Below, one piece after another: positions 29,265 to 50,935 of a stretch of DNA of 64,000 bases. The position numbers and the translations under genes were made by a program. The notes beneath the pieces are model-generated. The model saw only the letters and a list, made by a program, of their open reading frames with translations, had not been told where the DNA came from and did not search any database. Source of the stretch: Ceratodon purpureus. Lineage: Eukaryota > Streptophyta > Bryopsida > Pseudoditrichales > Ditrichaceae. Numbering within the stretch: position 1 is the first letter of the stretch; every line of letters begins with the position of its first letter. The stretch is taken from contig CM026427.1 of NCBI GenBank assembly GCA_014871385.1, positions 4,782,988-4,846,987 of the forward strand, in the 5' to 3' direction.

Positions 29265-29296
29265 ATGGCAGCCTCCGAGAAAGGGTAAGTTGTCCA

Positions 29297-29717
29297 GTCG
29301 GCTGTCCGCCGACGCTCCCCTTCTTGAGTCCTTCATGTTTCTGTTTTCTCGCATGGGTTTGTCCCTCCCGTCGGCTGTCCGCCGACGCCACCCCTTCTAT
29401 TGTCCTTCATGTTTTGTGTTCTCTCGCATGGCTTTGTCCCTCCCGTCGGCTGTCCGCCGACGCCACCCCTTCTATTGTCCTTCATGTTTCCGTTTTCTCG
29501 CATGGGTTTGTCCCTCCCATCGGCTGTCCGCCGACGCCACCCCTTCTTTTGTCCTTCATGTTTTGTGTTCTCTCGCATGGGTTTGTTCCTCCCGTCGGCT
29601 GACCGCCGACGCCACCCCTTCTTGAGTCCTTCAATTTTCTCACATGGGTTTTCCCCCTCGTCGGCTGTCCGCCGATGGGGAGGGAGTGTCCATCCCCCCC
29701 GTCGGCTGTCTGCCGAT
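29297..29717 (+). repeat. minisatellite of palindrome-bearing units in intron 1 of gene A
   Basis: Units of about 73-75 bp contain CCACCCCTTCTATTGTCC, CTCGCATGGG and one 17-nt palindrome each (29297, 29370, 29445, 29519, 29594, then shorter 29660 and 29701). Almost the whole intron is made of this array, so the palindrome has been amplified in tandem here. Confidence 0.9.
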
Positions 29718-32700
29718 GGAGTGAGAATCTGATGGTCTAATCTTGTGATTCTGATTTTGCAGGGCGATGGTCGACCCCACCGCAAAACCAAATGGGTTAC
29801 AGTGGCTCTGTGACAAGGTTGTTGATCTTGAAGGAAGAATACAAGCACGGGGCTTGAAACCGAGGGTGACATTCCTCGCTGATTCAAAGATAACGGAGTG
29901 GGGCATCACCTGGCGTGACACTCCCACGTCACTGGGCTTCGTGACCAAAATAGGTCAGAAGCAAATGGCGGGTGGACCAAGATTCGAGATTATTGGAGCC
30001 AGGGAATGCAAGGATAAGGACATCGTGTGCTTCGTGTTTGCATCGGTTCCTGTTGCGAAGGGCACTCCAGTGGACTGCTTCGCGGTTGTAATTCCGGCTA
30101 AGAAGTGCATGGACAGCTTGTGCTCCAAGGAAGTTCAGGAAGCGGCTCCTTGGGGCAGGGGCGAGAACCCTGGAGACGTTGAACAGATACTCGACGTGAT
30201 TGATACGCTCGGAGACAAAGTGGTGGAAGAGAAGACGAAGAGCTTGGTTAAGCCTTCACCAAAGAAAAGAAGCGGCCGCAAGTCTGCTGTAGAAGCAGAC
30301 ACTGGTACAGTCACTCCCAAGACCGGAGAGACACAGGCGACAGGGGAGTCATCGAGAAAGAAGAAGGGAAAGGCAGCGGCTGCTGAGGGCGAGGGTGGGA
30401 GACAGAAGAGAGGTGCGAAGAAGGAAGAGAAAAAGCAGACCGTCGCGGAAGCTCTCATGCTTGCAAACAATCTCACTTCCAAAACAAAGGACACCGACGT
30501 CCTTGCTATGTACCAGACGTTGGAGGAGGGACTTGGGCACTGCTTCCCCAACGGGCAAGGTGCCCTTCCTTGTCAGATTCCATATAACAGGATACACATA
30601 GCTCCCGACGAATTTAAGTACAGAGCGATATTCAGGAAGAGGCAGGATCAGATAAGTCTTTTCTACAAAGGACTAGGAGCAATCCGGAAGAAGCCCGAGC
30701 TGTACTGCCTTCCTATGAGTGGTGACCCCAGAGTAAAGGATCTAGTGACGGGCGAGATTAAGCTTAAAGGCTTGGAAGGACTTCTTAGACCTATGCCAGC
30801 CCTAAATATCAAGTATTCACTTAGACAGGATGACAGCAGAGATAAGCTGGTACCTTGGTATGAAGATGAGGGCATCCACTGGTACATAATTGGGGGCCAG
30901 CACACGTTTGAGGCTTGTCGAGAACTGGGAGAGAAGGAACCACTGGACTCTCCTATGCGGCAGTATTACCTTAACCACGATATCATTCCTGTATATGCTG
31001 ATAACAAGGATACCTTCATTAAGGTCTCTAACGCATTAAACATCGAGGTGAAGGATAAAGTCGCCGAAGTAAGTTTTAGGTCCCAGCTGGAGAAGATGCG
31101 CGCCAAATGGATCGAGAGGGGGAGGATCGAGAAGAAAGATGACTACAGCGCATGGAAGGTAATTCACATCTTCCTCTTTTCCTGTTGTTTCCATGTAGTT
31201 GAAAGTCGTCGGCGGGCCACCGACGCTCAGGTGGTTTTCTGTATTGTAATTGTGGGATTTATTTATCGATTTCATTTTCTTCTTCCTTGCAGGAGTTCTG
31301 CAAGGAGTACCTCAGTCCGATTCTCAGAAAGTCCCCTACGTCCCAAACCTTCAAGCTGCCCTTAGTCTTCGTGTCTGACGAAACATACAACGAGTGGCAA
31401 CTGGTCTTCAACGCCTGGGAGGAGGGGAGGATCATCGGGGAGGACGGTTTAAAACCAGGATTTCCCCAAAAGCCAGCCCGCCGGGACATAACACTCAACG
31501 ACATGTAGTACGGTCTTCGGGACCACGAATGCAAGACGCTGGCCAAGGAAGTTCTGGACCTTAAAGTGTACGTCAAGGTCATTGGGAAAGAGGTGGTTCA
31601 ACGGGACGCAATATCATTGGAGAATTGGTGTTTTCAGGTGAAGTACGAGTATGTTGTTCGAAACGAGCTAAGGTGCATTTACAGGGGCTTCGCACTTAAG
31701 AAGCCAGGGACTGGGAAGCATATTGAGTGGAGCATGGATGACTGGAATTCCCTTCAAGTCGAGAAGGGGTTCAATGATACGATGATTAGTAATATTCGGG
31801 GTGACTTGGAAGATAGTCCTGAGGGGAAGGAGTGGCTTAAGGGACGGAATCATCCGCTCACGCCGTCGCACGAGCCAACACCCGAATTCTTCAAAGACAT
31901 TGTGCAGAAGTACTGGAAGTCGGATGTGGACCAGTCTTTGCAGTCGTCTGTACAGTTCGATGCCCGGATTGCACAGGACCTGGGTGAAGTGTGCACAGCT
32001 CTTGACGTTCGCGGAGCGTTCTCCTTCAACAAGGCGCAGTATGAGATGTTCGTAGTCTTTGGCTACGATCCAGCGGGAAAGGAGATGCCGAACATGCGAC
32101 AACAGCACGTTCTAACTGTCGCTCAGAGGATTCACCGTGAGGTGGAGGAGGAGGTCATTCAGGTGGATGGGGAGGTAGATACAATTAAGGTGAATAAGCT
32201 TGTCACCCCATCCTTGTGGCTACTCGATGCTGAGTCGAATTACATTCTTCAAGGCGTGTCAAGGCTAACGAGTAGTTCGTGGACGGTGCATACTATGCAA
32301 TACTTCCCTGATAATTCCGCCGGGTTTCAAAGGAGTTCTCTCATTGACTCTAGACCCAAGCTTCATGTGTCCGTTATGTCCAAAAACAACGCCCGGGGAT
32401 GCATGGAATACCTTCTCGGACTTCACTGGTTTGAAACGTCCGCTTCCTCCCTATGTGGACGAAGGAGAAGACGGTCTTGGGGAGGATTGGTCTAATGGAG
32501 ACTGCCACGCTAGTTACTCTTTCCTCCAATCTCTTCTGGAGAAAGCGATGCAGTTTGAGGACGTTCGGGTGATCAATTGCTGGGGAGGGGGAACGTCATC
32601 GCTCCTGTAAGTCACTGACTCACTGCTGTCTCTTCTGGTGCCTTCGCTGTTTGCTCACCGATCGTCGGCGGGCAGCCGACGCTCATTGCATCCTTCGTCT

Positions 32701-33389
32701 TTCTTGGGTACAAGATTTCCTTAACCGTTTCGCCTTGTTCTTCTGCAAAAAAACCATTTTACTGTAATTGAGATCGTGCGTACCGAGGAAGAGAGATACG
32801 AAGTGCACTGTCGGGTTCGGAATATGACGTTCATTCCGGGCGTTTATAACGTGCCCGTCGAAGCTCCAGTTCAGACCACGCAGTCTGGGGCCGGGCCGTC
32901 TGTTCCCACCTCTGCTAGAGGCAGGACTGGCACTCTCACGGCTGCCGACTTGGGTGTGAATGCGGAGGAGGCCCATTTGGTCGGGAAGGGTGGATGTATG
33001 GGTTCGGGGAAGACTGCGGGGGTTTCCTCACAAAATTTTCAGGACTCCGACGACGATGTCGACGAGGACCCACCAGATGTACCCGACCCAGACGTTGAAG
33101 ATGAAGCTTACCTTCCAACTGGAGATGTTGAGGAACAGCCAAGAAACGAGGACGACCAAGCTGAGGCTCGCATTCCAACTGGAGATGCAGTGGTAGCCGA
33201 GAAATACACGGAGTACTTAGACTATGAACCTGAACCCGACGTGGTACCACTGGAAGAATCGAATCCTCGTTACGTGAACCCACCGCTGTCGCAAGTTACA
33301 GGGGAGCAAGGAACTGACTCCCTCAGCTTCGGTAATAATTCTCCTACAATACATGAGCAGGAGACTCCTCTCGACGAGCCAGAACGTGA

Positions 33390-33399
33390 CCTAACCTAG
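33390..33399. repeat. 10-bp target-site duplication, left copy
   Basis: CCTAACCTAG at 33390-33399 is repeated exactly at 49110-49119. This length fits the 8-11 bp duplications made by MULEs. It could be read as 11 bp if the following G is included. Confidence 0.88.
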
Positions 33400-33478
33400 G
33401 GGGGAAAGTTCGTACGTGAGCGGAGAGCGTAGAGCGGAGAGCGGTGAGCGCAGAATGGAGAGCACAGAATTGAGAAAT
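33400..33478. repeat. MULE terminal inverted repeat, left
   Basis: Begins with a G run, then AAAGTTCGTACGTGAGCGG, followed by GAGCGGAGAGC-type repeats and ending in AGAGCACAGAAT. It matches the right end in inverted orientation apart from a few substitutions and a 6-8 bp length difference in the micro-repeats. Confidence 0.88.
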
Positions 33479-34170
33479 AGCAAAATTTTCAAAAGCAAAG
33501 TAGACCCTATAACCGTGGAAAATTACTAAAATAAGGCTTAATTTTGACACTTTTTTTAGAAAAAGAGTATATTACCGTGGAAATTAGGGCTATCTCTGGT
33601 AAGAATTTATTACGTTTGTTCTCTAAGATACAAATTAGGGCTGATGTCATGATGACGTCATGCATACATTCCTTTAGATTTGTCAACGGTTTAGGCAAGA
33701 TACAATGATCAGGCGTTCAGTTTTAGATCAAACACATAATTCTTTCATAGGATTATGTAAATGCACAAGTAAAAAAACAAATATCACAGAACATAAAGGA
33801 GGCAAGGGTTGAAAACTTCCTAGAATATTTCAAAATTCGTGTATAATATCTTGACTGCTGAAACCAAGATATACCTTGTCAGAGTCCTTGTCTTCATCGA
33901 AGATTACTCTCTCTTCCTAGGCAGCGAAGCATCTGAATTTGAGTGATAGAAGTAGGAGATTTTCATCATGAAACAACACTTGGTAAGCTGGGTTCCAGAG
34001 AAGGAGGTCACTCTTGGTTTCATGAGCTTGTCTCTAGGTGGCGTATTTGGATAGTGACACAGTCCTTGGCATGCTGTGCTGTATGCGAAGGTAGCGTATG
34101 AGTTCGGGGATGTCAATATGCAAGCTTGAGTGTAACGTTTGAAGACTACAAGAATTCAGTGTGTTGGGCG
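33479..34170. other. MULE subterminal region
   Basis: Low-GC sequence with no supported gene. A short region near 33541-33600 repeats the ATTACCGTGGAAA motif found at 33510-33530. A possible splice acceptor lies just upstream of the ORF at 34171. Confidence 0.4.
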
Positions 34171-34542
34171 ATGCCGAAGGTGTGTAATGCGAGATCCAGG
34201 AGGACGAGAGCGGCTGTAGGTTTGCCCCCAAAGGCACCGGCGAGTTATGAGGAGCTGCGGCCGTGGCTGTTGGAGGTGGAGCGCGCTAGAGAACGAGGCA
34301 TGGACCTGCCACCGTTTAGGCACATCGGAAGCCTCCATGTTGGTGAAGGTGAATGGCGTTGGACAGTGCTTTGTACCAATGAGCTTCTCCGTATTATGGA
34401 GTTGTCCCTAATCCCGTATCCCTTGCTATCGAACGTCGATGAGAATCCAGTTGTTCAGCTGCCCGAAGTGATCATATCGGATGGCGAAACTTGCTGGTTT
34501 GATATGGACAAGAGTTGGACTGTATATCCTTCGAAGGATTAG
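34171..34542 (+). CDS. hypothetical protein, 123 aa, within the MULE
   Basis: Frame from ATG 34171 to TAG 34542, open upstream to 34126 without another ATG; a TTCAG acceptor at about 34158 could make it a 3' exon. The product is basic at the N-terminus (RSRRTRAAVG), then contains YEELRPWLLEVERARERG and a Trp-containing second half. No family is recognised. The codon-like, mixed composition suggests a real gene rather than chance. Confidence 0.45.
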   Translation: MPKVCNARSRRTRAAVGLPPKAPASYEELRPWLLEVERARERGMDLPPFRHIGSLHVGEGEWRWTVLCTNELLRIMELSLIPYPLLSNVDENPVVQLPEVIISDGETCWFDMDKSWTVYPSKD

Positions 34543-35048
34543 TACTGTGAAGTCTAGTGGGGTGTTCGAATACATTACTTTAGATGTGGTACCTCATTGG
34601 ATCTAGATACGAGTATTCCACCATGATGGTTTTAGATAATATAGATGATTCTAGGAATAAGAGAACTCGAAACCAACTAAAAGAGATGGTCTTCAAAGTT
34701 CGTGGAATATTTCAGAGTTCCTGTAGAATAATGGAGTAGAAGAAACCAAGATGTACACCAAGTCAAGAATAGGTAACATGGTTAGGAAATGTGGGATTTT
34801 GAATGGTTAAAATATAAGTTACAGCGCAATTTAAATTTTGAGCATTTCTTTTGTAACATTTCATTCTTCATATTATATTTTGAGCATTACAGTTGTGACA
34901 TTTCATCCTCTACATAGGAGGAGACGATTTGGAAATGTAACAAGTATAGATTCAGGGTAGTAGAGTAGACGAAGGATTACGCAATGAACTCCAATTAAAT
35001 CAAAGCAAATCCAATAAAAACAATGAAAGACCGAAGCCTCCTTCAAAC
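34543..35048. other. spacer inside the MULE
   Basis: AT-rich, no coding signal. It contains repeated ATTTTGAGCATT and ACATTTCATTCT motifs around 34835-34910 and is probably the 3' flank of gene B. Confidence 0.4.
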
Positions 35049-38000
35049 TCAAAACATGCTACCATCGCTACTTCCACTCTCAGAACTAGATGACTCTGAA
35101 TCTCCTTCTACCGCCTCGTCATCGACGAATAGAAGGGCTCTGTGATCAAAAGTAGTTGGCCGACTAGGAACATATGTAAGGGCTCCAGATTGAAACGCCT
35201 GTGCTAAGTCCTCTGCGTAGTCCGGAAGTATGAAAGGCTGAATCGGGCTGGAATGAAGACGCCAGGATGGAGTGGACACTGATGTTGGCCCACGTGGCGG
35301 TGTTGCTGAAACTACTCTGCAATAGAGAACGGACTGTGGTTACATCGAGTACGTAGAGCTGCAAAGAGAAGTAATGCATGGATAATTTGAACAAAGAATA
35401 GAAGACTTACACCACTTATCAGGTCTTGGTCTCTTTGGAGGCGCTTCGTCTGTTGCTGCCGGCCTTGGATGTTTAGGGGGGCCCATGGCGGATGGTTTGA
35501 GAAGGGCGTTGAATATGGCTTCGTCCTCCTCAAAAGCGAGAATGTGGCGACCAGTAGCCTGGGCAGCCTTGATGGAGGCTCCTGAAACTCGGAGAGATAC
35601 TAAGAAATGAGAAACTGTGGTAAAAACGAGAAGAATAATTCAGCAAAGATATGCATGAAGAGTTACCTGTCCCAGCATTCCAATCAACAACTATGTCGCC
35701 GGGCTTCGACAGCTCCTCAAGTATGCCCTGCATCATCTCGATGGATTTCTCCCTTGGGCCTCTCAACGGCACCTCCCCATTCATGAGCTGCGAATCCACA
35801 TCGGTCAAGTTGAAAATGGCATCACTCTCGGTAATGTTGAGGAGCCCATGTATCAGGTCTTCCTTCTTCGTCTGGAAGGAGAAAGTACTGCCACTACGAA
35901 CGTAGACGCGAATCCAGAATCGCATAGTCTGCAGTCAAGCAAAACAAGTGAGTAAAATGAAGCGGAAGGGTTATCGGTAAGCGAAGAGAAGGGCATGTTC
36001 AGGAAAAGTACCAAGTTCTCGGGGTTCGTAGGAGAAGTCAGGCCGAGTACATTGACACCCCACCAGTCCTTGAACAGCACGTATCCACCATTAGCAGCTT
36101 CTTCCTCGATATCCTTAGCCAGCTTCTGATCAGTGTTGTAGATGAGGCAGATGGCACCATCTTTCTGCAGAAAATCATCTGCAAAATGGAAGATGTCGTA
36201 CAAATAATCCTTGTAGCGAGAGTTCCAAGGCGGAATACTCGTGGGGGGAACGGAAATGGATGGGACGGGAAGATTCTCAGGGATGTCGGCAATGATCAAA
36301 TCGACTCCCAGATGGTCCTCTTGTTTGCACCGGTCCCCAACTATGTTTTCGCGGCCTGCTCCAAACTTGAGGAAACAAGAAAGCAGAGTTAGTAACTACA
36401 TAGCGAGTAGAGGTGGCAGAATCCATTAAATGTCAAAATATAGGAACAAACCTTGCGAATGAAGTCTTGAGTCTTGATCCAATCCGGGTCGCCACCTTTT
36501 CTCTCCTGTCTCCTATTTCGCCGTAACATAGAATCCACAGATGAGTTGAAGACGGAAACATGTGTGGAAATCGAAGCTCCAGCGGAAGAAGTTGTTTGAG
36601 GATATAGTTTGGCCTTCCTCTGCTGAAGGAGACCTCTGGTGATCTCCGAAGCACTAATCGATGAAGGAGCCGGCGAAGAAGCTGGAGAAGGGTTGGTAAC
36701 GACAACACCCGGAGACGGCTCTGGTGCCTTCTCAGCTGGCGCGGAAGACTCCGCACCAGTTTGCTGTGATGCCTCCGACCGAGAACGCAGAGATTTCAGT
36801 CGCCTTCCTCTCCCTCTCTTCGGTGGTGGAGCAGAAGACTGATCCTGCTCTCCTTCACGACCTTCTGCATCATCCACGGAGTCCTCCACCACAACCTCAC
36901 CCCCATCGTGTAGAGTCTTGACGTCTACCTCTGAGTCAATCGTGAAACCACGAGAGCAATCAAGATACCAGCATCCTTCAAGCAAGTGAGGAGCTTTGTA
37001 CCTTTTCAACTGTTGGGGAGAATAGATACACTGGTCCGAGGTTTTCGACGTCCAAGCAAGGAAGTAGGGGGGGAGCTGCTGAACCTTGATTGCCCCCTTC
37101 AGAAGAAGCTCTCGCTTGAAGTATCTATGTAAACCAATATGTAGAAGGTTAGTATCAAAGAGATAAAGAGACCTCGTTATGGAATTTGAATCTGATTAAA
37201 AGGAATGTATCGTACCGGTAAGTAACCCGCTTGACAACCTGAGCGGTTCCACGAAATTTAGCAAAAATGGACTTCTTGTCGAAGGGCTTATCTGCCGATT
37301 TTCCAATGAACGTAGGGAAGGCCTTGTCCCACAAGAGAATACGTGAACTCTCCACAAAATCGCCCGGCTCTTGTACTTCCGGAAAGGCCTTCCAATTGAT
37401 AACGATGTTCTCCGTCTTGCATATGTCCTCGAATGTGTTAATAACGGCTTCCTCCAACTGTAATTCAGAATTCAATTAATTAGCAATGAGAAAGAATCGA
37501 CGAAGAGAGTAATGCGTAATGTAATGGGAAAGGTTTTTTAAGAAATTGTACCCCAGCCCAGAATGAGGCCTTATTCAACCATGGGTCAAATTCGGTATCC
37601 TTGAATTCAAGTGGTGGAAATCTGTAAGACAATCGGGAACTCAGAGATGAGTTCCACCACCTCAACCAACGAGCCTTGTACTTGGCCTCAACGGCCGCTG
37701 GAACAATCTTCTGGAGCTTATCAAGTGACATCTCAGGTTTTGAGAAGTCACTGAAATGCCGATTAATCTGCAATAAGTACAGGAGTTTTAGAAAAAAAGA
37801 ATACGTAAATGTTCTTGTGATACAAAATAGTGAACTCAGGCACGATGAGGGTCTCACTTCGTTGAGGAAGTCGTCTCCATTCTTGGGATTCGCAATTGCC
37901 AAGTACTTGGTGAAGTCCTTCCTCTTAATCGATTCCACCATGTTGTTTGAAGCCGCATTCATGGCATCCCAAACACCAGTCGCGGTTTGGTCTTCAATGG

Positions 38001-39021
38001 GTGTTTTCTCCTTGTAGATTCTGGCAGCTTCATCAGAAGCTACCACAATTTCTCGCTGGAACACAAAGCAATGTTAGAGGAACTATATGAAGCACCGTAA
38101 ATCAATTGCCAAATGGAAGCGTCGGGGGGGGAGGAATGAGTGCTTACCCGATAAAGAAAAGCGATGAATACTTTTGTTGGCAATGTAAACCAGGATGGAG
38201 TAGCTGGTTTGTGATTCAATGCTAAAGCATACTCCTGTGGTGAAAGCAGATCCTTGAATTCCTCCAATTTCATCACACCAAAGGAGCGAATACGATAAAG
38301 TTTTGCCGGAATATTACTCTTCACGTGATCATTTTCCGTTGACCTGTACAAATAGACGTAAGTTAATAATAAGCATAAAGTACAAGTTCAATCGACGTTC
38401 AAGAGGTGTAGACAAAGTAGAGAGAGTTAATTCTTACCAATTAATGTCATGCATGGCATGAAGAAGGTTTCCAACATGACCGCGAGGGTCAAGAACAATG
38501 CAATGCACAGAGATGTGCCACGCTGGATCGTCGCTGTGATGCTTGTTGATATGTCTGTACCATGCGGCAAGGCGATGGTTACCTTCCCAGACATAGAACA
38601 TCTTCCCGGAGAACTCCTTCCAATCCGGGTCGGCCAAGAGCTCATCTTCAAAAGCATCATTAACATTTTGCCAACACGGGCTCCAGTCAGCCTTGATCTC
38701 CTCAGTGACATCGGCTGTCTTCTCTTCGTGGTTGTAGATAGAAATGTACATGACACGGTCTCCATCTCTATAGCCTTTGACAAACTCTCGCTCCAAATGT
38801 TGAACTCCCATTTCTCCTACAGGTCGCACTCTTGCCATTGAGAGCATCCTGCAAAGGGGAACTTGGATACGCAACTTTGTCTTTGGAAGTATTCGGAGCT
38901 TATTGATGACGCCATTGGAGTCTTGCTTGTGTTGTACCCGATGTTCCAATTCACTGTCCACTACATTCGTCAAATCAGGAGGACAAGATGGCGCTGGCAA
39001 CATATCCTGTGTCTGAGTTAC
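35049..39021 (-). CDS. gene B core: ParB-like domain fused to DNA amino-methyltransferase-like domain
   Basis: Ten exons with GT-AG sites and consistent phases give an uninterrupted 1053-aa frame: 39021-38438, 38343-38148, 38055-37858, 37767-37552, 37457-37216, 37124-36452, 36365-36012, 35928-35667, 35581-35411, 35314-35049. Residues about 85-195 contain YVWEGNHRLAAWYRHI and LLHAMHDINW, resembling the ParB/sulfiredoxin fold with its GxHR signature. A middle region of about 500 aa is unrecognised and includes a Ser/Pro-rich linker. From about 720, DLIIADIPENLP (motif IV position, DIPE instead of DPPY), then LQKDGAICLIYN, then at about 902-908 DWNAGTG (motif I) and GRHILAFEEDE. The order IV before I is that of beta-class N4-C/N6-A methyltransferases. 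The C-terminal tail is acidic. The altered motif IV leaves catalysis uncertain. Upstream exons probably extend this protein. Confidence 0.72.
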
Positions 39022-39165
39022 CTGCAAGAAGTACTACATTTTCAAAATTGATTCCAAGATAAGGATCAAAACAAGTAATGCAATTATGAAAAAGAATAGA
39101 ACAATAGCTTCATGTACTGATACCAATCGTCATCAGTAGAAAGGTGTACATAGGCAACTATGTAC

Positions 39166-39744
39166 GTGGAGCACGGCTATAATACTCCCTAGCCTGTCTA
39201 CAGTTCCAATGACGGCGCCTCCTCCAAAAACGCCTGGTCTGTTGGACAGGGCATGGTAGTATCGCCGGGAGGGCGAAGACAACATGGGCTGGCCTCCTCA
39301 CTCTAATAGGCGAGGAAGGAGAAGGTGGAGACATCGGCGGGGTACCAAGCCGTGGAGAAGTAGGCATGTAGCCTGGGGATGTAGGCTCATAGACAGGAGA
39401 CGTAGGCATGTACTGAGGGGAGTGGACCTCGAGAGGTCCACTACCTACACCTACAGGGCTTCCTAAATCACACCTACATAAATGGGGCTGATCAAATGAA
39501 TCCGAGAGGTCGGAAAGATTGATAACCGAGATCGGGGAGCTGATGGACAAGGGTGCATCTGAGAATACCTACAAGAAGTTGAACAAAGACATTGTCAAGT
39601 TACCATTTTAGTTTACAAAACTTCTAAAGGAAGTTTAATTGACAATGCAAAATTCAATACAAAAAGGAAAATGGATTAAATTACCTCAGTTTCTGCAGGA
39701 GTTGGACCATCACCTTCAGTCGCAGTGAGTTGATCCGTAAACTC
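39166..39744 (-). CDS. upstream exons of gene B with RNA Pol II CTD-like heptads
   Basis: A 60-nt exon (39744-39685, EFTDQLTATEGDG onward, phase 0) is followed by an exon starting at 39568 that reads VFSDAPLSISSPISVINL. At about 39350-39415 it encodes three consecutive heptads of the form YxPTSPx (the first is YMPTSPV), then TPPMSPPSPSSP. This matches the consensus of the Pol II largest-subunit tail. The 3' splice site is clear; the donor is not, so the junction to the ParB exon at 39021 is unproven. The frame becomes basic (FWRRRRHW) before a stop near 39158. Confidence 0.5.
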
Positions 39745-39816
39745 CTGCAACACATACGGTATACAAATTATAATAAATTTAAAGAATACATCATTAAAAA
39801 AAGCAAAAGTTCTAAT

Positions 39817-42800
39817 TCAAATACATATTTTCCACTTAGCTGCCCCCTCCTCATGGGAGGCATTCTGTACAGAATGCCACTCCGATTGGGTCCAATCCCT
39901 TGCGGGTATGGTGTGGATCCTCGTGGCTTCGTGTTTCCACCCCTTGCCCTCGTACCTCGCGGCCCATTCTACTGCAGGGTCGGTATTCCCCACAATGCAC
40001 CTAGCGGCTATGGCCACTGTGAGATCCACCTCCATCCTCGCGGCCCCATGTACTGCAGCCTCCAAATCCGCGACCTCGCACTTCGCCACAGTGGCATTCT
40101 GTACAGAATGCCACTCGGATTGGGTCCACTCCCTTTCGGAGTTGATGTGGTTCCCCGTGGCGTCCTCCTTCCACCCCTTGTCCTCGTACCTGGCGGCCAA
40201 CTCTTCGTATGTATCCGCGTCCCCAACCTTGCAGCTCGCGGTCCCAGGCTCCGAATCCGCGACCTCGCACTTCGCTACAATGGCATTCTGTACAGAATGC
40301 CCTTCTGATTGGGTCCATTCCCTCTCGGTTGTAATGTGGCTCCCTGCGGCCCCCTCCTTCCACCCCTTGCCCTCGTACATCGCGGCCCCATCCTCTGCAG
40401 ACCTCGAGTCAAGAGCCTCCCCCCATGTGGCTATGGCCGCTGCGAGTGCCCCATCTCCCACCTTGCAGCTCGCGGCCCCAGGCTCTGAATCCGCGACCTC
40501 GTACTTCGCTACAGTGGCATTCTGTACAGAATGCCACTCCGATTGGGTCCACTCCCTTTCGGTTGCAATGTGGTTCTTCACGGCCTCCTCCTTCCACCCC
40601 TTGCCCTCGTACCTCGCGGCCCCATCCTCTGCAGACCTCGAGTCCAGAGCCTCCCCCCATGCGGCTATGGCCGCTGCAAGTGCCGCATCTCCCACCTTGC
40701 AGCTCGCGGCCCACTCTACTGGAGGGTCCGAATCCTCAACAACCCACCTTGCGGCTATGGCTGCTGCATGTGCCGCATCTCCCACCTTGCAGCTCGCGGC
40801 CCCATCTACTGCAGGGTCGGTATTCTCAACCTTGGACCTTGCGGCTATGGCCGCAGTGAGATCCATAATCTCCATCTCACTCCTCGCGGCCCCATCTACT
40901 GCAGGCTCCGAATCCGCAAGCTCGCACTTCGCATAGATGGCATTCTGTACAGAATGCCACTCCGATTGGGTCCACTCCCTTTCGGTTGCAATGTGCTTCC
41001 CCACTGCCCCCTCCTTCCACCCCTTGCCCTCGTACCTCGCGGCCCCATCCTCTGCAGACCTCGAGTCCAGAGCCTCCCCCCATGCGGCTATGGCCGCTGC
41101 AAGTGCCGTATCTCCCACCTTGCAGCTCGCGGCCCACTCTACTGTAAAGTCCGAATCCTCAACCTGAGCCTAGGCGGCTATGGCCGCTGCAAGTGCCGCA
41201 TCTCCCCTCTTGTTGCTCGCGGCCCACTCTACTGGAGGGTCCGAATCCTCAACCACCCACCTTGCGGCTATGGCTGCTGGAATTGCCGCATCTCCCACCT
41301 TGCAGCTCGCGGCCCCATCTACTGCAGGGTCGGAATTCTCAACCTTGGACCTTGCGGCTATGGCCGCAGTGAGATCCATAATCTCCATCTCACTCCTCGC
41401 GGCCCCATCTACTGCAGGCTCCGAATCCGCAAGCTCGCACTTCGCATAGATGGCATTCTGTACAGAATGCCACTCCTATTGGGTCCACTCACTTGCGGAT
41501 TTGCTGTGATTCCTCGCGGCCCCCTCCTTCCTCCCCTTGCCCTCGTACCAAGCGGCCCCCTCAACTACTGTATCTGCGTCTTCCTCCTTGGACGTCGCGG
41601 CTGTGCCTTCCACAAATTCAGCATTCTCCACCTCAAACCTTGCGGCTATGGCCGCAGTGAGATCCGCATCACCCACCTTGCAGCTCGCGGCCCATTCTTC
41701 TGCAGGGTCCGAATCCCCAACCTTACACTTCGCTACGATGGCTGCAGAGGGATTTGCAACCCCTTACTCTCACATCGCCTCCCCACATGCTGCAAAGTGT
41801 GAATCCGCGACCTCACAACCTGCACCATTCACCAAATTCACATCAACAAAAGCCCAAGTTCGATCCCTTACCTCTTCTGTGGGTGCACCTCGGTCCGTCT
41901 CACCACCTGCGCTCTCCATCTCCAGCTCCGCGCGGTCCTCTGCACGCCCATCCATGTTACGAGCACTTGCCTCCGAGTCCAATGCCGCAGATTTGAGTTG
42001 AGAAATGCCCTCAGCTGACCCCTTCCCTCGACTACCTCGACCTCTCCCTCTCCCTGGACCACCTATCCATCTCTCTCGATCCGCAACCTCAAACTCTTCA
42101 CATTCGTTGTCATTAGCGGGCCCCGCCATTCTACGTTGCGATTGGTCTATGTCTAGACTCCTCTGCGATGGACTTCCGGGGTCCCCGCGCCCCGCTCGTC
42201 TAACAGCTACAGTTTCCCCACCTTCGCCCGCCTCCATAATTTCGCGTCTCGCTCTCCGAGCAACTTTTATCAATGTCTCAGGATCTGACTCCTCGCCAGC
42301 ATCCACTTCTGGCGTCTTTTCCTCCACAATCTCTTGACCATTCCTAAACCAATCGGCAATCTGCACAAATATTACTACTTTTGATCTTTTCTAATTAACA
42401 ACCACCCGGACTGATGCGGTATCATAAATCTAAACAATTAAACTCGAAGACATAACATAGAAATTAATGCAACACTAAAAAGTACATGATTTACATTTAA
42501 CATATTTTAATAGATCTACTATGGGACTTACCACATCCGTGTTAGAATGCTCGCCCGTCTGTGAATCCGTCCCTCTTGTCGAACACTCCTTAAAACCGAA
42601 AGAAGGTTGTGGTGTCTCTAAAGTCGGACTGGAATGGAACCCTAATTCTTCCGTCATCTCTATCTGTTTTTCTCCGCTACTTTTTACGTCCCCCTCCGGA
42701 CGCTCAACAATGCAGTCCTCTAAAACCTCCTCTACTATAGACTCCAGAATAAGTTTACGAATGCTACAAAATTTAATTGCCAAAGGCAGCCCAGCTCCTC

Positions 42801-42963
42801 GAACCTTCAGAGGTGCACCCGACAAGTTGCCTCTACAGCTCGCCTTCCTACGAGATTCTCTCCTCTTCCTCGCTCTCCTATTCGTAAAATCTGTACCATA
42901 TGCTTTTTTTCTACGTTTAGGAGTGACAAAAGTGGGGGGAGCTGACCCTCCACTCTCCTTCAT
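39817..42963 (-). CDS. N-terminal exons of gene B or separate repeat-protein gene
   Basis: Exon 42963-42532 starts with ATG and reads MKESGGSAPPTFVTPKRRKK, basic then acidic, ending at a GTAAGT donor in phase 0. The next exon begins at 42360 after a TGTGCAG acceptor and encodes a disordered RG/DE-rich region (GPGRGRGRGSRGKG). From about 41676 down to 39817 the frame is built of repeats: AASCKVGDAALAAAIAA, EDGAARYEGKGWKE, EREWTQSEWHSVQNA. In-frame TAG codons occur at about 41168 and 41474 and a TGA at about 41770, unless introns remove them. Plus-strand frames are also open here, but their Leu/Pro/Arg composition is less protein-like. No function is known. Confidence 0.4.
39859..41471. repeat. 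six copies of a perfect 20-bp palindrome
   Basis: GGCATTCTGTACAGAATGCC, identical to its own reverse complement, occurs at 39859-39878, 40093-40112, 40282-40301, 40516-40535, 40939-40958 and 41452-41471, usually extended by T...A. On the minus strand it encodes EWHSVQNA within the repeat protein. The surrounding repeat units vary in length (189 to 513 bp), yet the palindrome is unchanged in all six. Confidence 0.95.
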
Positions 42964-43759
42964 GTGTCTAACTTACAAGTGAACTCTCCTCACAATATAG
43001 CTCTCCTCCTTACTTCCCTCTAACTTATATATCCCAAACCTTCAACCCCCCTGACTCTGCCCTAAATACTTACCTTATTCTAAACCTACTTGAATTAATG
43101 AAAACTATAAATAAATTACATTTTGAATTAAAGCTGATGAGATCAATCTATTTTTGAAGAGAATAAACCAAGCCCACAAAATATGAAAAGATTTTAATTA
43201 AGCACAGGAATACTTGTATTAAATATGGATGCAAGTGACGGCTCACTCTAATCTCACTCACAGTCTGTCTGTCGAGCAATCTATTATGAAAATAGAGGAA
43301 CCCTAACACTGCATAAAATATAGAATTTGAATAAATCATATGCTTGCATAAGTCCTATACATATATAAATAATGCATGAATTTGATTAATTCAAATTCTA
43401 TATATTTATTGTTTTCAATGCACAAGGAAAAGACGGCTCTTTTTAATCCAATCACACTCCATAAAAAATAGAATCTGCTCCACCATTTAAACACTTAAAG
43501 CAAAATTCTGAAAATCTTACCACATATTTATGGGCCTGCAAAAAGCACATTCTAATCAGTTCGCGCCGTCTCTCTTGAATCATACATTCGTTACGTAACA
43601 GACAGAATCATTCCCCAACTGTTGACATGGACATTCCACCTTGAATAAAAAGATCAAGAGCGATGCATCATTCCTCTCACTTTGCTCTCGCGATACTGCT
43701 TCGCTAGTACACTCCCTCTTCTCCCTTCTTCCTGTAGTGCCTCTGATTTCCCTGCGAAT
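42964..43759. promoter_or_regulatory. divergent intergenic region inside the MULE
   Basis: About 800 bp of AT-rich sequence between the ATG of the minus-strand exon at 42963 and the transposase ATG at 43760. It presumably contains both promoters. TATATATAAATAAT-like stretches occur at about 43360-43375; I cannot assign a start site. Confidence 0.45.
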
Positions 43760-46700
43760 ATGGGGATGGTCTGTCTGTACGCCCAGGGCATGGGCATCCC
43801 CCTTAGGTTTCGCGTAGATGACGATGGTCTAGCTACGGTGTCCTCTCTTCGCCTCAGTCTCAGATTCCATTTCCGTGAAGATTCCATCAGTATAGAGGAG
43901 GAGATGTTTGATGACGTTACTGCCGAGGTTACCCACACCCTCGGGCAACCTTCACTGAGAGATGAGAACAACATGTTGCAGTGGAGACTCCTCCCTGGAT
44001 CCTATAGAGTCTATGGTCTTACTGATTCTCTTATGGCTGCATCCACTGAGATCCTCACCCCCCGTCGCTCTTCTACTTGTACAATTCAGACTCCCTTACC
44101 TCGTGATGTCAAAGTCAAAGTCGAGCCTGGTACCGAGACTTCAGATGTAGAGAAACCTCCTCCGACCGTCATATCTCTCTCTTCTGATGACGAAGTCAGT
44201 CCCGTGAAGTTGGTGCCTAAGGTCCACGCAGATGCTCCTCCTTCCAATGTGTCTCCTTCATTGTCCCAGGTCACAGTTAGCATTGTTCCGCTCCTTAAAG
44301 AGATTGCTAAGACGCGTGGGTCCAAAAACATTTTGAAGAAGATAGACTATTCCACTATTAGACACGAGAGAGTAGAGTACTTGCCTGCGAAGTTTGATGG
44401 TCGGGTTCTTTTTGAATTGCCCCCAGCTGCTGCAGGATCCTCTAAGCTCGCCGCCAAGTCTATGCAGGGAATGGACAAACGATACGACGGACACTTGTGG
44501 ACCAAGACCATCACAACAAACATCAAAAACGACTTCGGACTCTCTTTTCGAAGTTCCACCTGCGTCGGATGGCTCCGGTGCAGCAACCAGGAGTGTGACT
44601 TTCTGAAGCGTGTTCCCAAGATCTTCGAGGTCAACGAGACTGAGTTCGAAGGCTGTACCCTGCAAGCTTTTGTCATGGACCAGCCTCCTCCATCTGACTC
44701 CACGCTAGTGTGCAAGGTATGTAAAGAACCTCCATCATGTGTAGCTACATGCGAGGCTAAGATTTATTACGTTGTGGGCAAACCGAATCAGACTAGAGCG
44801 TGTATTCACATAGGAACACATGATCATCCTGTGAAAGTTGGAGACTACAGAGACTCTAAAGCAGAGATTAGTAGCTTAATAGAAGAGCAGGTAGAGATGA
44901 ACAACAAAGCAACGAAGAGCGCCGTTGTCCTGGAGGCGAGCAAACTCCTCATCGGGAGCTACCTTCTACAGCCCGAGGATGCACCACCGAGGAAGCTGAC
45001 GATGGAGGAGCTGGTTCCTGTTCTGGATCGATGCAAAGACATGGCGTCGCCCAACATCCGCAACAAAGTTGCCACCTTCAAAAAATTCAAAAGGTACGGA
45101 ATCATGGACGGTATCACCAAGCTCCGTGGTAACAGTCTCTGGGCGTATGTCCAGGAAAATAGGTTTCCTGGTCAGGGATCGATGCGTGACAAAGTCTTTG
45201 TCTTCAAGATGTCGGAGGTCGGGCCGGGCAGTGGTGTCGACTTGGTCAGCCGTATGCAAGCTGGTGGCGATTTGGAGAACGCATGGATCATGTTCGACCA
45301 TGTCAAACGCGTCAAAGATTGGTCGACGATGGCGTGCCATGTGTACGACGCCACCTACTGCCGCGTGATGACAATCGCCACTTGCGACATGCAGTCCGAG
45401 GACACGGACGCCCAGCTCGTCTTCTGGAAAAACCTGAACCTGGTCATGGAGATCAATGGCGTTGCAGCGCCGAACTTCAAGGGGTTCATGGCGGATAACG
45501 CACAGGCCAATTGGAATGCAGTGCGAATCCTTTACGGCAATGGCAACAAAGAGGACCCAATGGAGGACCGGGAGCGGTCGTGCTTGTTCCACTGGACTCA
45601 GAACATGGTGGCGTATACACAGAAGCACTTCCCCGAAGAACTCTGGGAACAGCACAAGAAGATGTGCACTCAGTACAAGAATGCGACCAGCATGGCAGAG
45701 GCGGAAACTCTGTACCACGCGTTGCGAGCATGGTGGGCATCCACCGGGGTCGTTGGCGAGAGCGGGCTCATCAAACTCGATCAGTGGCTGTCATTCTGGC
45801 ACCACCGCTTCCGCCAGTGGGGGGGATTCATGACCGAGGTACGATCTCTGCACTCTGTTTTGATGTTTTTCATACTGGTTTCCTAGCCCTAACCTACAAA
45901 AGTCTAATCCGTGAATCTAACGGCACCTACTGTCAAATGTGCAGAAATTCACGAAAGAAGAACTCACAGAGATGCCTACCTGTAACCTCGCCGAAACAGT
46001 TCACAACAAGTGGCTCCAAGCTTCAGGAAACAACGGGAACGACCTCTACGTTGCTACCGTGGACGATTTCGTTCGGGCATTTCTACAGGTTGTCAACTAC
46101 TACCAGTTCCTCAAAGGTGACGTCGGAGGAACAGGACCATCCAAGAAGGAACTCAGGCTTCGGATGGCGGAACGCAACGCGAAGAAATGGGGAAATCCTA
46201 CACTGCTCGACAAGCCCATGCTCGATATGCCAGGCGCGGATGAGTTCTGCACCCGTCAGCCTATCATGCCAGGAGCGGAAGTCTTCGGTTCACAGAAGCG
46301 AAAAGCCGACGTCCTTATCGGAGCTGATGAAGAGTCTCATCGCCCGGATAAGACCAACTTCTCACGCCCAAGAGGCCCAAGACGTGCCGTCAGGGCTCGC
46401 CCTATGCAGATGCCCGTCATTGTGGAAGACGACTCCGAACAAGACACCGAGGTACAATGTACGCAACCTCCTTCCCACGAAGTTGATTCCCCTTTACCTT
46501 CACCTGTGAACAAGGGCGGCATTCGCCATGTCAACGCGGTTGAAGAAACCAAGGTGGACGTGAAGGAGTGGCACATTTCGAGACTTCACAAACTTTCTGC
46601 GAAGTGCTGCTGGGCCCAAAGAGCTGAAACGAAGAAGAAGTGCACTGAGAGAATCGTCAGGGGGCCCCATTGCACAGCTGCACCGACCTACACTGGGCTC

Positions 46701-47438
46701 TGGACTAACTATCGCAGGAACCTAGTGGAGAAGACTGAGTTCTTCTTCTGCTCCGACGATATTGAACGCTGCGTGAAAGGCTCTAAGCGCAAGTGGGTAG
46801 CACACTACTCGAAGGACCAGGAATTCCCCTCCATTCCTGAGGTCTGGCCAGTGAAACTAGGTACTAACCTAAAACTGACTGAGATTCTTGCCCTCGAAGC
46901 AGCGGGCTTTCAACTTCCGCAGAAGAAACCGGTCTCCCCAAGACGCCTCTTCTCCTCTGCCCCGCCTCCTGCAAATCTCAGCTCAGTGCCAGTCCCTGCA
47001 GACGCTGACCGCTACCCTGGGAAGAGAGACGGCAAGATGGTGAAGCGCACTGCCACTCGTCCCAATCAAGCGCAGCGACTCTCCATGGGCTCCTCCGAAT
47101 CTCTTAAAGCGCGCCTCCGTTCTGTCACCATGATACCTGAGCCGGGTCACGGTTGCATCATTGGGCTGGATTCCGGCGTCGCTCCACACATCACACGGTA
47201 CCAGATTACCATCAGTTCTTACCCTGGTTGCACTTGCCCAGCATTCAAGAAGACAATGACTACGTTCCGTGGGAAGACTCAGTTCACGTATTGTAAGCAC
47301 CTATACTACATATTCTTGAAGGTCTGCAACCGTGATCCCGAAGCGGAGCTTTTCATCCATGCGCCTACCTTCAGCTTCAACGAGGTCAAGCTACTCTTAG
47401 AGAGTGGAATCTTGCGTCAGCCCTTGGCGAAGAAGTAG
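43760..47438 (+). CDS. MULE transposase with SWIM zinc finger
   Basis: Cut-and-paste transposase of the Mutator-like superfamily. Exons 43760-45838 and 45945-47438 (GAG/GTACGA donor, TGTGCAG acceptor, phase 0) give about 1190 aa with no internal stop. An acidic Ser/Pro-rich N-terminus is followed by a Cys/His region (WLRCSNQECDF; CKVCKEPPSC; HIGTHDHPV, about 270-360) like the WRKY-GCM1/FLYWCH-type fingers of MULEs. The catalytic region has VYDATYCRVMTIATCD (first Asp about 529) and FMADNAQANWNAV (second Asp about 579), with a candidate Glu in FPEELWEQ. Near 1119-1142, CTCPAFKKTM and FTYCKHLYYI form the CxC...CxH SWIM finger. The start is the ATG giving MGMVCLYAQG. Intact ORF, long TIRs and target duplication suggest recent activity. 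Confidence 0.87.
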
Positions 47439-47692
47439 GTAGCCCTCCTACTTTAGAACTTCCATTTCCACAATGGCCATTTGTCACGTAGTGAATGATT
47501 TTAGTAATATACCATGTACTAAGTCAGCTATTCAGAAGCTGTATTGACTTTTTCATTATATTAAAGGCTTTGGCGTTCACATTGATTGCAATCTATTTCA
47601 ATACATTGTATCTTGAAGAAGTGCACTATATACCTCGTATCCCCTGACATGTACCCTTTATTAAGGCAAACATATACTTGTTATTAGATGTC

Positions 47693-48145
47693 CTAATCTT
47701 CGAACCTAACACGTTTAGGGTTGCCGACTACACTATCAGCAGGACTGCCAGCCGCTGACTGTACTACAGGACAAACTACATTCGCATTCACTTTCGTTCC
47801 CACACTTGGCAAATGTCCTTGGTATGATCGTTTTAGCAATGGCCCACCTCCCCGCCTCCGATTAACTGATTCCCTGGAATAGGTTCCCCTTGGGATCTTT
47901 CCAACCCTCGAGTATGCATGTGGTTGCAAAGGCACATCTGTGTCCTTCTCTATCACTATGATTTCATCCGAATTTTCTGAACGTCGAGGGTCAGCTCTTA
48001 CATCCGGTTGTACCGCAACATCCGATGTCGACGGACGCCCTTGGCTGTTGGCCATCACCTCTTCTTCGTCCTCCACCTCAACATATGGTTGAAATGGACA
48101 AACATCGTCAGCGAGTGAAACAACAATATCTCTGACGTCTTCCAT
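47693..48145 (-). CDS. hypothetical acidic protein, 150 aa, within the MULE
   Basis: Frame from ATG (cat at 48143-48145) to a stop at 47693, convergent with the transposase. The product has an acidic stretch VEVEDEEEV near residue 25, a second one at EIIVIEKDTD, and a basic half with RRRGGGPLLKR, ending in NPKRVRFED. No family is recognised. It could be a transposon accessory protein. Confidence 0.4.
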   Translation of the reverse strand: MEDVRDIVVSLADDVCPFQPYVEVEDEEEVMANSQGRPSTSDVAVQPDVRADPRRSENSDEIIVIEKDTDVPLQPHAYSRVGKIPRGTYSRESVNRRRGGGPLLKRSYQGHLPSVGTKVNANVVCPVVQSAAGSPADSVVGNPKRVRFED

Positions 48146-49030
48146 AGGTGCTGTCCCGCACTACGGAAAAGAGCTTCACATAACACCAATACAAAAGAGG
48201 CAGAGACATTCCCTACTCTTATCTTAAATATCCCTGAAGAAGATGCTTGGCGCCCTTGAAAATCGGCTATTCATTCATTTAAAAGTTGTCATCCTCCTAA
48301 ACTGAATGTGAAGGTTTAGCAGAGGTCATTTAGCATTTAAATTTTTCTTTAAAAATTAAAGAATGAAAAAAAAAAAAAAAAAAATTAAAAAAAAAAAACA
48401 TTTATATAAATTGAAATTAAAAAGATTAAAGAAAAGAATAGCAATATTTAAAATGAAGGTTGAAAATAATATGAAGGAGATCAACAAATTGAATGTGAAA
48501 ATAAAATGATTGTGAAAATAAAATGAAGGAGAGAATCAAATGCAAGGAGGCTTTTGACCCCTCTAACAAGATAGATAGAATAAAGAAAATTTTATAAAAA
48601 ATACAAAACAAATTTCAAAAAAATTTTAAAAAAAAAAAAAAAAAGGAGAAAGGCATGTAGACTATAGTGGATGAATTCTAGCAATGTTATGAAATTAAAT
48701 GTTACTTGATCCCTGTTCACAGGTTCAATACCAAAACATTCTAAGTAGTAATTTGCATATAAATTTAAGGAGATAAGGGGAATTACTGTATGCCTGAACT
48801 AGTTAGATGGAGCTGGAGCATAGTAATTGGTGCACGTTAAAAAAATTAATCACCAAGAAAGGAGAATATGAACTACAAATTCAATGAAAATACTATAATT
48901 AGTCCACGGTTATAGGGTCAATTAAGTTACTAAAATTAGTAACTTTCCAAAAATATACTAAGTATATTCGAATCTTCTAATTTTATATTTTATTTTTAGT
49001 AAAAAAAGTGCTATTTTTAGGTTCTGTCCC
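48146..49030. other. AT-rich MULE subterminal region
   Basis: No gene is seen. It contains A-runs at about 48367-48400 and 48620-48645 and the subterminal GACCCTATAACCGTGG motif (read on the minus strand near 48900-48920) shared with the left end. Confidence 0.5.
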
Positions 49031-49109
49031 ATATTCTGTGCTCTCCGCTCTCCAAATCTGCGCTCACCGCTCTCCGCTCTGCGCTCTCCGCTCACGTACA
49101 AGCTTCCCT
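49031..49109. repeat. MULE terminal inverted repeat, right
   Basis: Reverse complement of the left terminus: CTCACGTACAAGCTTCCC at the end, preceded by CTCTCCGCTC-type micro-repeats. It is followed immediately by the right copy of the target duplication. Confidence 0.88.
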
Positions 49110-49119
49110 CCTAACCTAG
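49110..49119. repeat. 10-bp target-site duplication, right copy
   Basis: Exact second copy of CCTAACCTAG. Joining 33399 directly to 49120 restores a continuous gene A frame apart from the TAG contained in the duplicated site itself. Confidence 0.88.
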
Positions 49120-50752
49120 GCGGGGCCTCCAAAGAAGATGCAGGTTCCTCTAGCATCGAGGCCTGACGATGAAGTGGTTGTCCGTGTCCAGAAGCCAACC
49201 CAGGAGCCTGCAGTGAACATAGAAGGGCCTCTTCCCCCTGCTGCCGTCGGCGGGCAGCCAACGGCAGACAAGCAAACCTCATCTAACCCCTCTGCCAAGT
49301 CCAAGTTAGCTGGGAAGTCAATCGCATTCGTCACTCAGGGTGTGAAGGGCGCAACTCGGATGATTGGCCCAGATGAGAACCCTCTGGTCAAGACACGAGC
49401 ATTGAAGAGAAGTAAGACCGATGGTACTGCTCAGGATTCCTCTCTTGTGGGTAACTTATCGCGTGATTCCTCAGGGGTTTAGGAAGGGGAGGAGTCCTCT
49501 AGGAAGGGCAAATGGAAGGCTGCTTCGAAGAAGACTTCCTCCAAGAAGGGCACATCTGGGGAACAGCTCATGAGTCCCAAGAATGTGGACGCTCCAGAGG
49601 ACGTTCTGTCACCTCCGCGGGCATCCAAACGGGAGCCTAGGTTGAAGAAGCACAAAGGTGGAGGTCAGTAAATCAGGCGGTGGCCCAATCCATCTTTTAA
49701 ATGCCTGCATTGATAATTTAGTGTAGTGATCGGGCGCTAGGATTGTGTTAGATGTTTGTACTGCCAAATATGAATAAATTTTCGGTAAATGCCAAGTTGT
49801 ACGCTCTCCCTTTTTCCAAATAATGTTGCTTGCAAGTCGACTGTCCGCCGACCGTCATCCTAACCGTCACGTTTGTCCTCTGCTTCGTTTTCTGTCACTC
49901 CAGAGTCCGCGGACAAAGAAGTCCATGGAAAACTTCGCGAAGAGAGACCCAGTGCAGTTCTGGAGCAGGGACCTCCACCTCTGAATCCACTTCACATAGC
50001 CCCGGAACAGGCTGGTTCTCAGGTACACGATCCAGTGCTGAAGTACTTTCTGGTTCTGGATATTAACGGCCTGCTATTAGTCCAGACGAAGCAGGGCACT
50101 AGGTGGAATACTAAACTTAGACCGGGTTTAGAGAAGTTCCTAGAGTTCTGCCTGGACAATTTCGAAGTGGTCTTCTGGAGCTGCGTTCAGGAAAAGAGGT
50201 TCGAGATTCTATGGACAGTGTTGCAGCAGCCCTGTCCTCGTCTTGATGCCGAAGTGCACTACAAGTTCGACCAGAGTTTCTGCGAGACTTGCGTTCATAA
50301 GGCTGGTTGGTAGGGAGTTTTATTTGAAGAGACTCCAGACCCTCTTTGACCTCGATGACGGGCTGAAGGGGACGGGGGCGTCTTCAATTAACACTCTCTT
50401 GGTTGATGATTCCCCTTATAAGAATGTCGCAAACATTCCTTGGAACGCTGTGCACCCTACACCATATACCTTCGTTTTGAAGGAGTCGGAAAATAAGAGG
50501 AATTATCTGGTTGGCTAATTGATTCCTTGGCTTACCAGTTTGAAAGAATCTAAACTCCCCGTGCCCGAGTACTGCCAGAAACACTCCGAATTCGGTCAGC
50601 GTTGTCTGTTTCCGGGGATGAAGCTTATAGTCTCTTCTCTCCACACATTGATTGCCCTAAACGAAAGAGAACATAGTAGATGTAGAAACTGTTTTAGAGA
50701 ACATGCACATGATTCAGTCGGCTGCCCGCCGATGGGATCTTCATGTATTTAG
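49120..50752 (+). pseudogene. gene A, 3' part: basic region plus FCP1/NLI-like HAD domain (copy 1), damaged
   Basis: The frame interrupted at 33399 resumes here (AGPPKKMQVPLASRPDD). Exon 49120-49663 contains VGGQPT encoded by a 17-nt palindrome at 49246, an in-frame TAG at 49480, and a Lys-rich stretch. A GTCAGT donor at 49664 and CACTCCAG acceptor before 49904 join in phase to ESADKEVHGK. Then YFLVLDINGLL, RPGLEKFLEFC, FEVVFWS and NTLLVDDSPYKN mark an FCP1/NLI-type HAD domain; the usual DxDxT motif is DxNGL, so the second Asp is lost. A frameshift near 50300 and TAA at 50516 break it. Coding homology to copy 2 continues through the TAA. The end lies near a palindrome (50717) and AATAAA at 50765. 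Confidence 0.65.
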
Positions 50753-50770: not shown

Positions 50771-50935
50771 GTTTTCCTCCTTTTAAATATATGAGAACAG
50801 AACTCAGTGTCGAGATTGTGTATTCTGTCGTGGGTGTCTTATTGTATCTCCTATTGTACACTAGAGCAAGTATGAATTGTGAGCACGCGATTGATCACCC
50901 ATGTTTTCTTGGAATTTGTCTTTTATTGTTCAGGA

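Follow-up and report, generated by a model that had tools for sequence, protein, structure and literature searches.

The window analysed here, a stretch of 64,000 nucleotides from the moss Ceratodon purpureus (GCA_014871385.1, contig CM026427.1, positions 4,782,988 to 4,846,987), contains a DNA transposon that carries a spliced gene of ten exons in addition to its transposase-like gene. The ten-exon gene is on the minus strand, running from 39021 to 35049, and its GT-AG exons, separated by introns of 83–105 bp, join into 1050 residues and a stop. The transposase-like gene (43649–47438) is on the plus strand and is divergent from it, with a tandem-repeat array in between (Table 1). A first-pass annotation of the same DNA had named a transposon, without coordinates, that carried an intact gene encoding a fusion of a ParB-like domain with a DNA methyltransferase. 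The intact, conserved gene within a transposon stands, and the element itself can now be placed at 33401–49111.

Table 1. Coordinates of the transposon, its genes and repeats, and the second element in the window (TSD, target-site duplication; TIR, terminal inverted repeat; ORF, open reading frame)
Feature	Position	Strand	Remarks
Whole transposon	33401..49111		15.7 kb, nested in another repeat element; TIRs and perfect 9-bp TSD
Left TSD	33392..33400		TAACCTAGG; perfect 9-bp duplication
Right TSD	49112..49120		TAACCTAGG; perfect 9-bp duplication
Left TIR	33401..33454	+	55-bp arm (33400–33454), 91% complementary to right arm
Right TIR	49057..49111	-	55-bp arm, 91% complementary to left arm
Exon 1 (E1)	38438..39021	-	N-terminal module with GNHRLAAW
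Exon 2	38148..38343	-	
Exon 3	37858..38055	-	
Exon 4	37552..37767	-	
Exon 5	37216..37457	-	
Exon 6	36452..37124	-	Low-complexity linker at its end
Exon 7	36012..36365	-	DIPEN at motif IV position
Exon 8 (E8)	35667..35928	-	Motif I DWNAGTG at its end
Exon 9	35411..35581	-	GRHILAFEEDE
Exon 10	35049..35305	-	Acidic Ser-rich tail and stop
Conserved upstream exon region	39158..39568	-	YMPTSPV-like heptads
Tandem-repeat array	39859..41472		Periods 423, 234 and 90 bp; 6 dyads GGCATTCTGTACAGAATGCC starting at 39859, 40093, 40282, 40516, 40939 and 41452
Transposase-like ORF, part 1	43649..45886	+	
Transposase-like ORF, part 2	45921..47438	+	SWIM-like CxC...CxH
Second element, apparently interrupted	22568-52264		Dyads and 75-bp array
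Second element's 75-bp array	29293-29675		
Second element's gene	29755-33399, perhaps continuing at 49121		YIIGGQHTFEACRELG; motif-I-like VINCWGGGTSSLL by eye

The ten-exon gene and its transposon

The reading of ten in-phase exons without a stop was confirmed; the earlier count of 1053 codons was not, the discrepancy lying in exons 9 and 10. The order of the motifs GNHRLAAW, ADIPE, KDGAICLIYN, DWNAGTG and GRHILAFEEDE was as described at first pass. The gene is more than a product of chance, because the same ten exons are found free of stops in two other elements (L044 and L045, with proteins 71% and 84% identical to that of the window), the distance between E1 and E8 is 3054–3102 bp in 48 of the 48 E1–E8 pairs among the matches listed, and the whole-gene ratio of nonsynonymous to synonymous substitution (dN/dS) between the gene classes described below is 0.14–0.24. 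Exon 1 opens with a splice acceptor, so the gene must begin before it. The YMPTSPV-like heptads upstream of E1 are kept in the window and nine other aligned elements, and no in-phase donor that joins this upstream exon to E1 and is common to the classes was found on inspection of the alignment by eye. The heptads resemble the C-terminal domain (CTD) of RNA polymerase II. The same exon also contains a lone dyad, AGTGGACCTC-N2-GAGGTCCACT, at 39421–39442, which recurs in class A and class B elements.

The gene encodes a protein of two modules: an N-terminal one (E1–E5), whose ParB-like fold is putative, and a C-terminal one with a methyltransferase fold. The beta-class N6/N4 methyltransferase fold claimed at first pass for the C-terminus is supported by PF01555, PHROGs and hhalign, which agree. 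PF01555 matched the window protein with 29.8 bits (curated cut-off 26.7), L044 with 39.1 bits and L043, a diverged relative from family B, with 37.9 bits over profile positions 2–218 of 221. DNA methyltransferase families of PHROGs were matched with a best E of 2.8e-9, and hhalign placed the domain collinearly with the methyltransferase of P0001, a ParB-methyltransferase fusion of a phage (95.2%, E 2.7e-8). The matches in the PDB are beta-class enzymes, of which DpnA comes first (E 0.0039). Motif IV precedes motif I, as in the beta class, and motif I is kept in all six aligned proteins; in L055 it reads DLSTGSGAS.

Catalysis is a different matter. The consensus of motif IV in beta-class enzymes is (D/N/S)PP(Y/F/W). 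The motif is DIPE in the window, L040, L044, L045, L049, L053 and L058 and EYPD in L055 (by gene class, DIPE in A, B, C and E and EYPD in D); the aromatic residue and the second proline are missing from all transposon genes read that far. Activity is doubtful in these genes because motif IV is degenerate; for the window copy, with DIPE in place of DPPY, this doubt had been voiced at first pass. This weakens another idea of the first-pass annotation, namely self-marking, in which the protein would work as an active N6-adenine or N4-cytosine methyltransferase on the element that encodes it. The idea can draw on the PF01555 score, on the retention of motif I, on the DQPF or DQPY found at motif IV of the diverged relatives L041–L043, which is nearer to DPPY, and on the existence of a phage methyltransferase-like ORF with DIPY (L047). 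Weighed against the residues lost from the transposon genes, we find it quite unlikely. It is more likely that the fold serves as a cofactor-binding or chromatin-contact module than as a working DNA methylase. The relatives L041–L043, which are about 40% identical and have longer introns, may still be enzymes, judging by their motif IV.

The other half of the proposed fusion did not hold up as the methyltransferase half did. The GNHRL motif and the ParB-like motif order of the N-terminal module are seen by eye only, and the assignment to a ParB/sulfiredoxin domain failed every profile test made. The Pfam scan matched no ParB domain in the window or in homologous proteins, and the NCBIfam scan was negative for ParB homology. 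The profile PF02195, proposed at first pass as a check, matched neither the predicted protein nor anything else in the whole genome (zero matches). Comparison with phage ParB_N using hhalign reached only 0.07–0.5% with small and larger alignments; after post hoc removal of a 40-column insert, 13 of 100 column-shuffled controls scored equally high, with or without the cut. ParB homology of the module was rejected on these results. Since the profiles used were shallow (Neff, the effective number of sequences, about 2), the label is best described as unproven and a distant relation is conceivable. Pattern-seeded scans of viral and genome contigs confirmed no prokaryotic or viral relative of the module, and no relative was confirmed by a tblastn search of plasmids with the N-terminal module of family B.

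The first-pass assignment of the transposon to the Mutator-like elements (MULEs) was upheld as to the kind of element, a DNA transposon with TIRs and a 9-bp TSD, both verified in the window copy alone. MULEs generate TSDs of 8–11 bp, and the duplication of 9 bp and the 55-bp arms with 91% complementarity agree with this in the one copy. The Pfam MULE transposase domain was matched neither in the window nor in the homologous proteins, the SWIM match is weak (E 0.14, 12.2 bits, below the cut-off of 19.6), and a DDE-like pattern in the transposase is visible by eye. MULE is therefore the likeliest superfamily, suggested by TSD length, the sub-cut-off SWIM match and the DDE-like pattern, and is not proven by a domain match.

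Copies and gene classes in the genome

The genome searched comprises 362.5 Mb in 151 contigs, and the copy searches score the best candidates only. E1 was found in at least 150 genomic places and is stop-free in 136 of the 150 best-scoring ones; E8 was likewise found in at least 150 places (stop-free in 146 of the 150 best-scoring). A transposase fragment was scored in 98 places, with 96 stop-free and 99–100% identity. Among the matches listed, 46 of these 98 transposases are preceded by a divergently oriented E1 or E8; within 25 kb, E1 is arranged otherwise in three cases and E8 in one. From the 52 transposases without a listed partner, 12 were examined (L044, L045, L049–L058), and the gene was present in 11; in L054, the array extends to the end of the stretch, within which no E1 lies. 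The divergent layout of gene and transposase recurs across the family. A further copy, on contig C13 (L039–L040), stands at 94% on the transposase side, 87% in the gene, which is broken (L040), and 93% on the TIR side.

E1 falls into five classes, A to E, which are 41–77% identical: 71–77% among A, B, C and E, and 41–44% between these and D. The transposases beside representatives of all five classes are 99–100% identical over 428 amino acids, as are those of the window and the 12 examined elements. Between classes, the synonymous divergence (dS) of E1 is about 2 or saturated, with a dN/dS of about 0.1; within classes, dS is 0.008–0.51 (8 pairs). Towards the 3' end of the gene dS declines: between the window and L045 it drops from 2.1 in E1 to 0.09 in exon 10 (E10), and between the window and L044 it goes from saturation in E1–E5 to 0.36 in E10. 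Purifying selection is evident from dN/dS values of 0.05–0.09 in E1–E2, where estimable, and of 0.05–0.35 in exons 1–6. Because dS drops along the gene and dN/dS is low in E1–E2, the N-terminal classes appear to be old and under constraint, and the 3' end appears to be homogenised.

Gene capture is frequent in MULEs, and on this ground the gene might be a captured host gene that travels as a functionless passenger. The open E1 in most of the best-scoring copies, the dN/dS of exons 1–6 and the recurring divergent arrangement make such an origin without function hardly credible.

Tandem arrays and their possible reader

An array lies between the gene and the transposase in the window and in 12 of the 12 examined elements; none was found in L039. 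Neither the arrays, which lie outside the coordinates given at first pass, nor their association with the gene class had been noticed there. The arrays contain dyad-symmetric sites that differ by gene class: GGCATTC-N6-GAATGCC in class A, CCTACTGTCGT-N2-ACGACAGTAGG in class B, GTCTGCT-TTCGG-AGCAGAC in class C, GGTACTGCCG-N4-CGGCAGTACC in class D and CGCATTC-GGAGCA-GAATGCG in class E. The dyad fits the gene class in 37 of 42 elements, that is, in 28 of 33 for class A (25 exact and 3 one-base variants), 4 of 4 for B, 2 of 2 for C, 1 of 1 for D and 2 of 2 for E. The tally excludes L009 (the window itself), L041–L043 (another family) and L054 (no E1), and for 30 class A elements only some 1.5 kb of upstream sequence was viewed. 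Two or more B, C or D dyads were seen in the viewed stretch of none of the 33 class A elements. For 14 arrays, the repeat unit was subjected to 200 dinucleotide shuffles, and the dyad arm was reached or exceeded in 0–2 of these for the window, L044, L045, L049, L052, L053, L055, L056 and L057.

The placement of the dyads in the genome points the same way. There are 104 exact copies of the class A dyad in 362 Mb, and the class B dyad is present 1802 times; the backward controls gave 0 for both. Among the matches listed, 46 of 50 class A sites (11 of 15 clusters) are within 5 kb of a listed class A E1 on its array side, against a random rate of 0.0024, for which the lengths of two contigs were rough; the four clusters away from E1 are single sites. 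Of five class B clusters among the matches listed, four are where they would be expected, next to a listed transposase or E8 (random rate 0.0072), and none is beside a listed class A E1. The dyads are also conserved within classes B and C. In class B, 21–22 of 22 bases are kept, compared with 45–60% in near and 50–57% in far ungapped flanks, and in class C, 19 of 19 compared with 24 of 40 in near and 34% in far ungapped flanks, for a pair with an E1 dS of 0.05.

Element-internal repeat motifs that differ together with an element-encoded protein are the mark of a VANDAL/VANC-type system, and such an association, with exceptions, is found here. The arrays cannot merely follow the transposase, because the transposases are 99–100% identical and E1 differs by class; for the same reason, it is probably the ten-exon protein that reads them. 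We therefore put forward, with roughly even confidence, that this transposon-encoded protein recognises the arrays of its own element and provides a VANC-like anti-silencing function based on a different protein; its binding, expression and effect are inferred. The N-terminal module would allow a dimer to bind the dyads of the array that separates the two genes. The bound protein would keep its own element and class-mates free of silencing by the host, which in turn would allow the transposase and the gene to be expressed. If the gene and array change together, several specificity classes could coexist on one shared transposase.

Two alternatives assign the arrays or the protein another task. 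The arrays may be promoter, enhancer or transposase-binding sequences, with the gene as an accessory transposition factor like mudrB. They do sit in the stretch between the divergent genes, which has to hold both promoters, and extra ORFs can occur in MULEs according to the available part of one account (PMC6446971); the finding that the same transposase adjoins quite different arrays makes it an improbable reader, and we regard this explanation as unlikely. The protein may instead coat its own class and prevent nearby insertion or limit copy number, in the way that a clamp like ParB or MuB might. Class-linked sites, the several classes on one transposase and the motif-level resemblance to ParB (GNHRL) suit such self-limitation, whereas the failed profile tests and the high copy number do not, and it is distinctly improbable.

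A number of observations weigh against recognition of the arrays by the ten-exon protein. The gene and array are neighbours, so linkage partly explains the class-dyad association, and the placement data support binding without proving it, since physical linkage alone would keep the two together. Five of the 33 class A elements have no dyad: L034 and L038 (only 1.5 kb seen), L040, in which the repeated dyad is absent and the gene broken, and L050 and L051, whose 171-bp arrays contain none that is significant. The 128-bp array of L054 has no significant dyad either. The dyad arm was matched in 8 of 200 shuffles for L058, 18 for L021, 37 for L054, 84 for L050 and 92 for L051, and the 7-base arms of L021 and L058 are not significant taken alone. 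The code is not fully class-specific, because the half-site GCATTC-N6-GAATGC is common to A and E, which are told apart by its centre and flanking base; class A, moreover, is not uniform in its dyad (15 of 18 bases shared between the window and L021). The ungapped flank figures overstate turnover, because class-mate arrays in gapped alignment are still 65–78% alike in parts. Class D is represented by one element, the counts of open copies cover the best-scoring places, and dN/dS is higher where dS is low (0.47 in E7 and 0.75 in E10 between the window and L045). Finally, a coding role of the window and L044 arrays is conceivable, because the former has long open frames and the periods of both are multiples of three. 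Coding sequence was rejected for a 660-bp sample of the L045 array only, where stops interrupt each of the three gene-strand frames.

The second element and comparison with known systems

The transposon is inserted at the end of a gene that belongs to another high-copy family, the query segment of which was found in at least 150 genomic places. The dyad GTCGGC-N5-GCCGAC occurs 11 times between 22568 and 52242. The gene of this second element has an in-frame stop in this copy, and Pfam gave no match for it. That the same gene-array layout arose twice in the window is no more than a lead. Two minus-strand ORFs at 24313–26155 match DUF7869 (E 2e-20 and 3.8e-13) and are possibly the transposase of the second element. 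Two ORFs that adjoin the second element (50895–51812 and 52308–53018) match PF03031 (NIF, FCP1-like CTD phosphatase) above the cut-off.

A bolder version of array recognition is a ParB/parS-like system, in which a DNA clamp with a nucleotide switch, joined to a methyltransferase fold put to a new use, would load on the palindromic arrays of its own class, spread and keep the element open. Several specificity classes would share one transposase, comparable to the exchangeable specificity modules found in restriction-modification systems of bacteria. The other transposon in the window, to all appearance an unrelated one, would have evolved the same layout. We hold this version to be quite improbable.

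Among the matches listed from searches of the open-licence literature, judged by titles and the beginnings of abstracts, no paper was about a methyltransferase-bearing MULE in a moss. The phage ParB_N/N6_N4_Mtase fusions are similar in that an N-terminal module precedes a beta-class methyltransferase (P0001 of Streptococcus phage phiGBSVK-A; available part of PMC12704722). They differ in motif IV, which is DPPY in the phage protein, in length (417 residues compared with at least 1050 in the moss) and in the N-terminus, which is ParB_N in P0001 (24.4 bits, just under the cut-off of 26.3) and lacks ParB support in the moss. Epigenetic enzymes are also carried by other transposons, as the accessible text of one source describes: TET/JBP in fungal DNA transposons and SET histone methyltransferases in oomycete Harbinger and MuDR elements (PMC12730594). 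What they share with the moss element is that a domain which modifies chromatin or DNA is carried by a DNA transposon. The enzyme folds and hosts are different, and an association of arrays with the gene is absent from the descriptions in that text.

In print, a sequence-specific way for transposons to escape silencing was found in the VANDAL/VANC system of Arabidopsis. The motif YAGTATTAY is bound by VANC21 in noncoding tandem repeats, which vary from one related element to another (PMC5735166, PMC10398659), and these target motifs evolve with the VANC protein (PMC5735166), as far as the available parts of these papers go. If our proposal is true, the moss family, which pairs another protein fold with class-linked palindromic arrays, would show that self-recognition of this sort arose more than once, and the paired classes of protein and site would allow a direct reading of the recognition code. 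The family would also be a natural source of candidate proteins that open chromatin in a sequence-specific way. The arrays name their own candidate sites. Both systems, on the same partial sources, combine an element of MULE type (a probable one in the moss), an extra gene with diverged versions and tandemly repeated short motifs in which related elements differ (PMC5735166, PMC10398659). In contrast, the sites are dyad-symmetric in the moss, whereas the VANC21 motifs are arrayed in one orientation; the moss protein has a methyltransferase fold, and its element has TIRs, which in the VANDALs are described as lacking or as short and degenerate (available part of PMC6446971).

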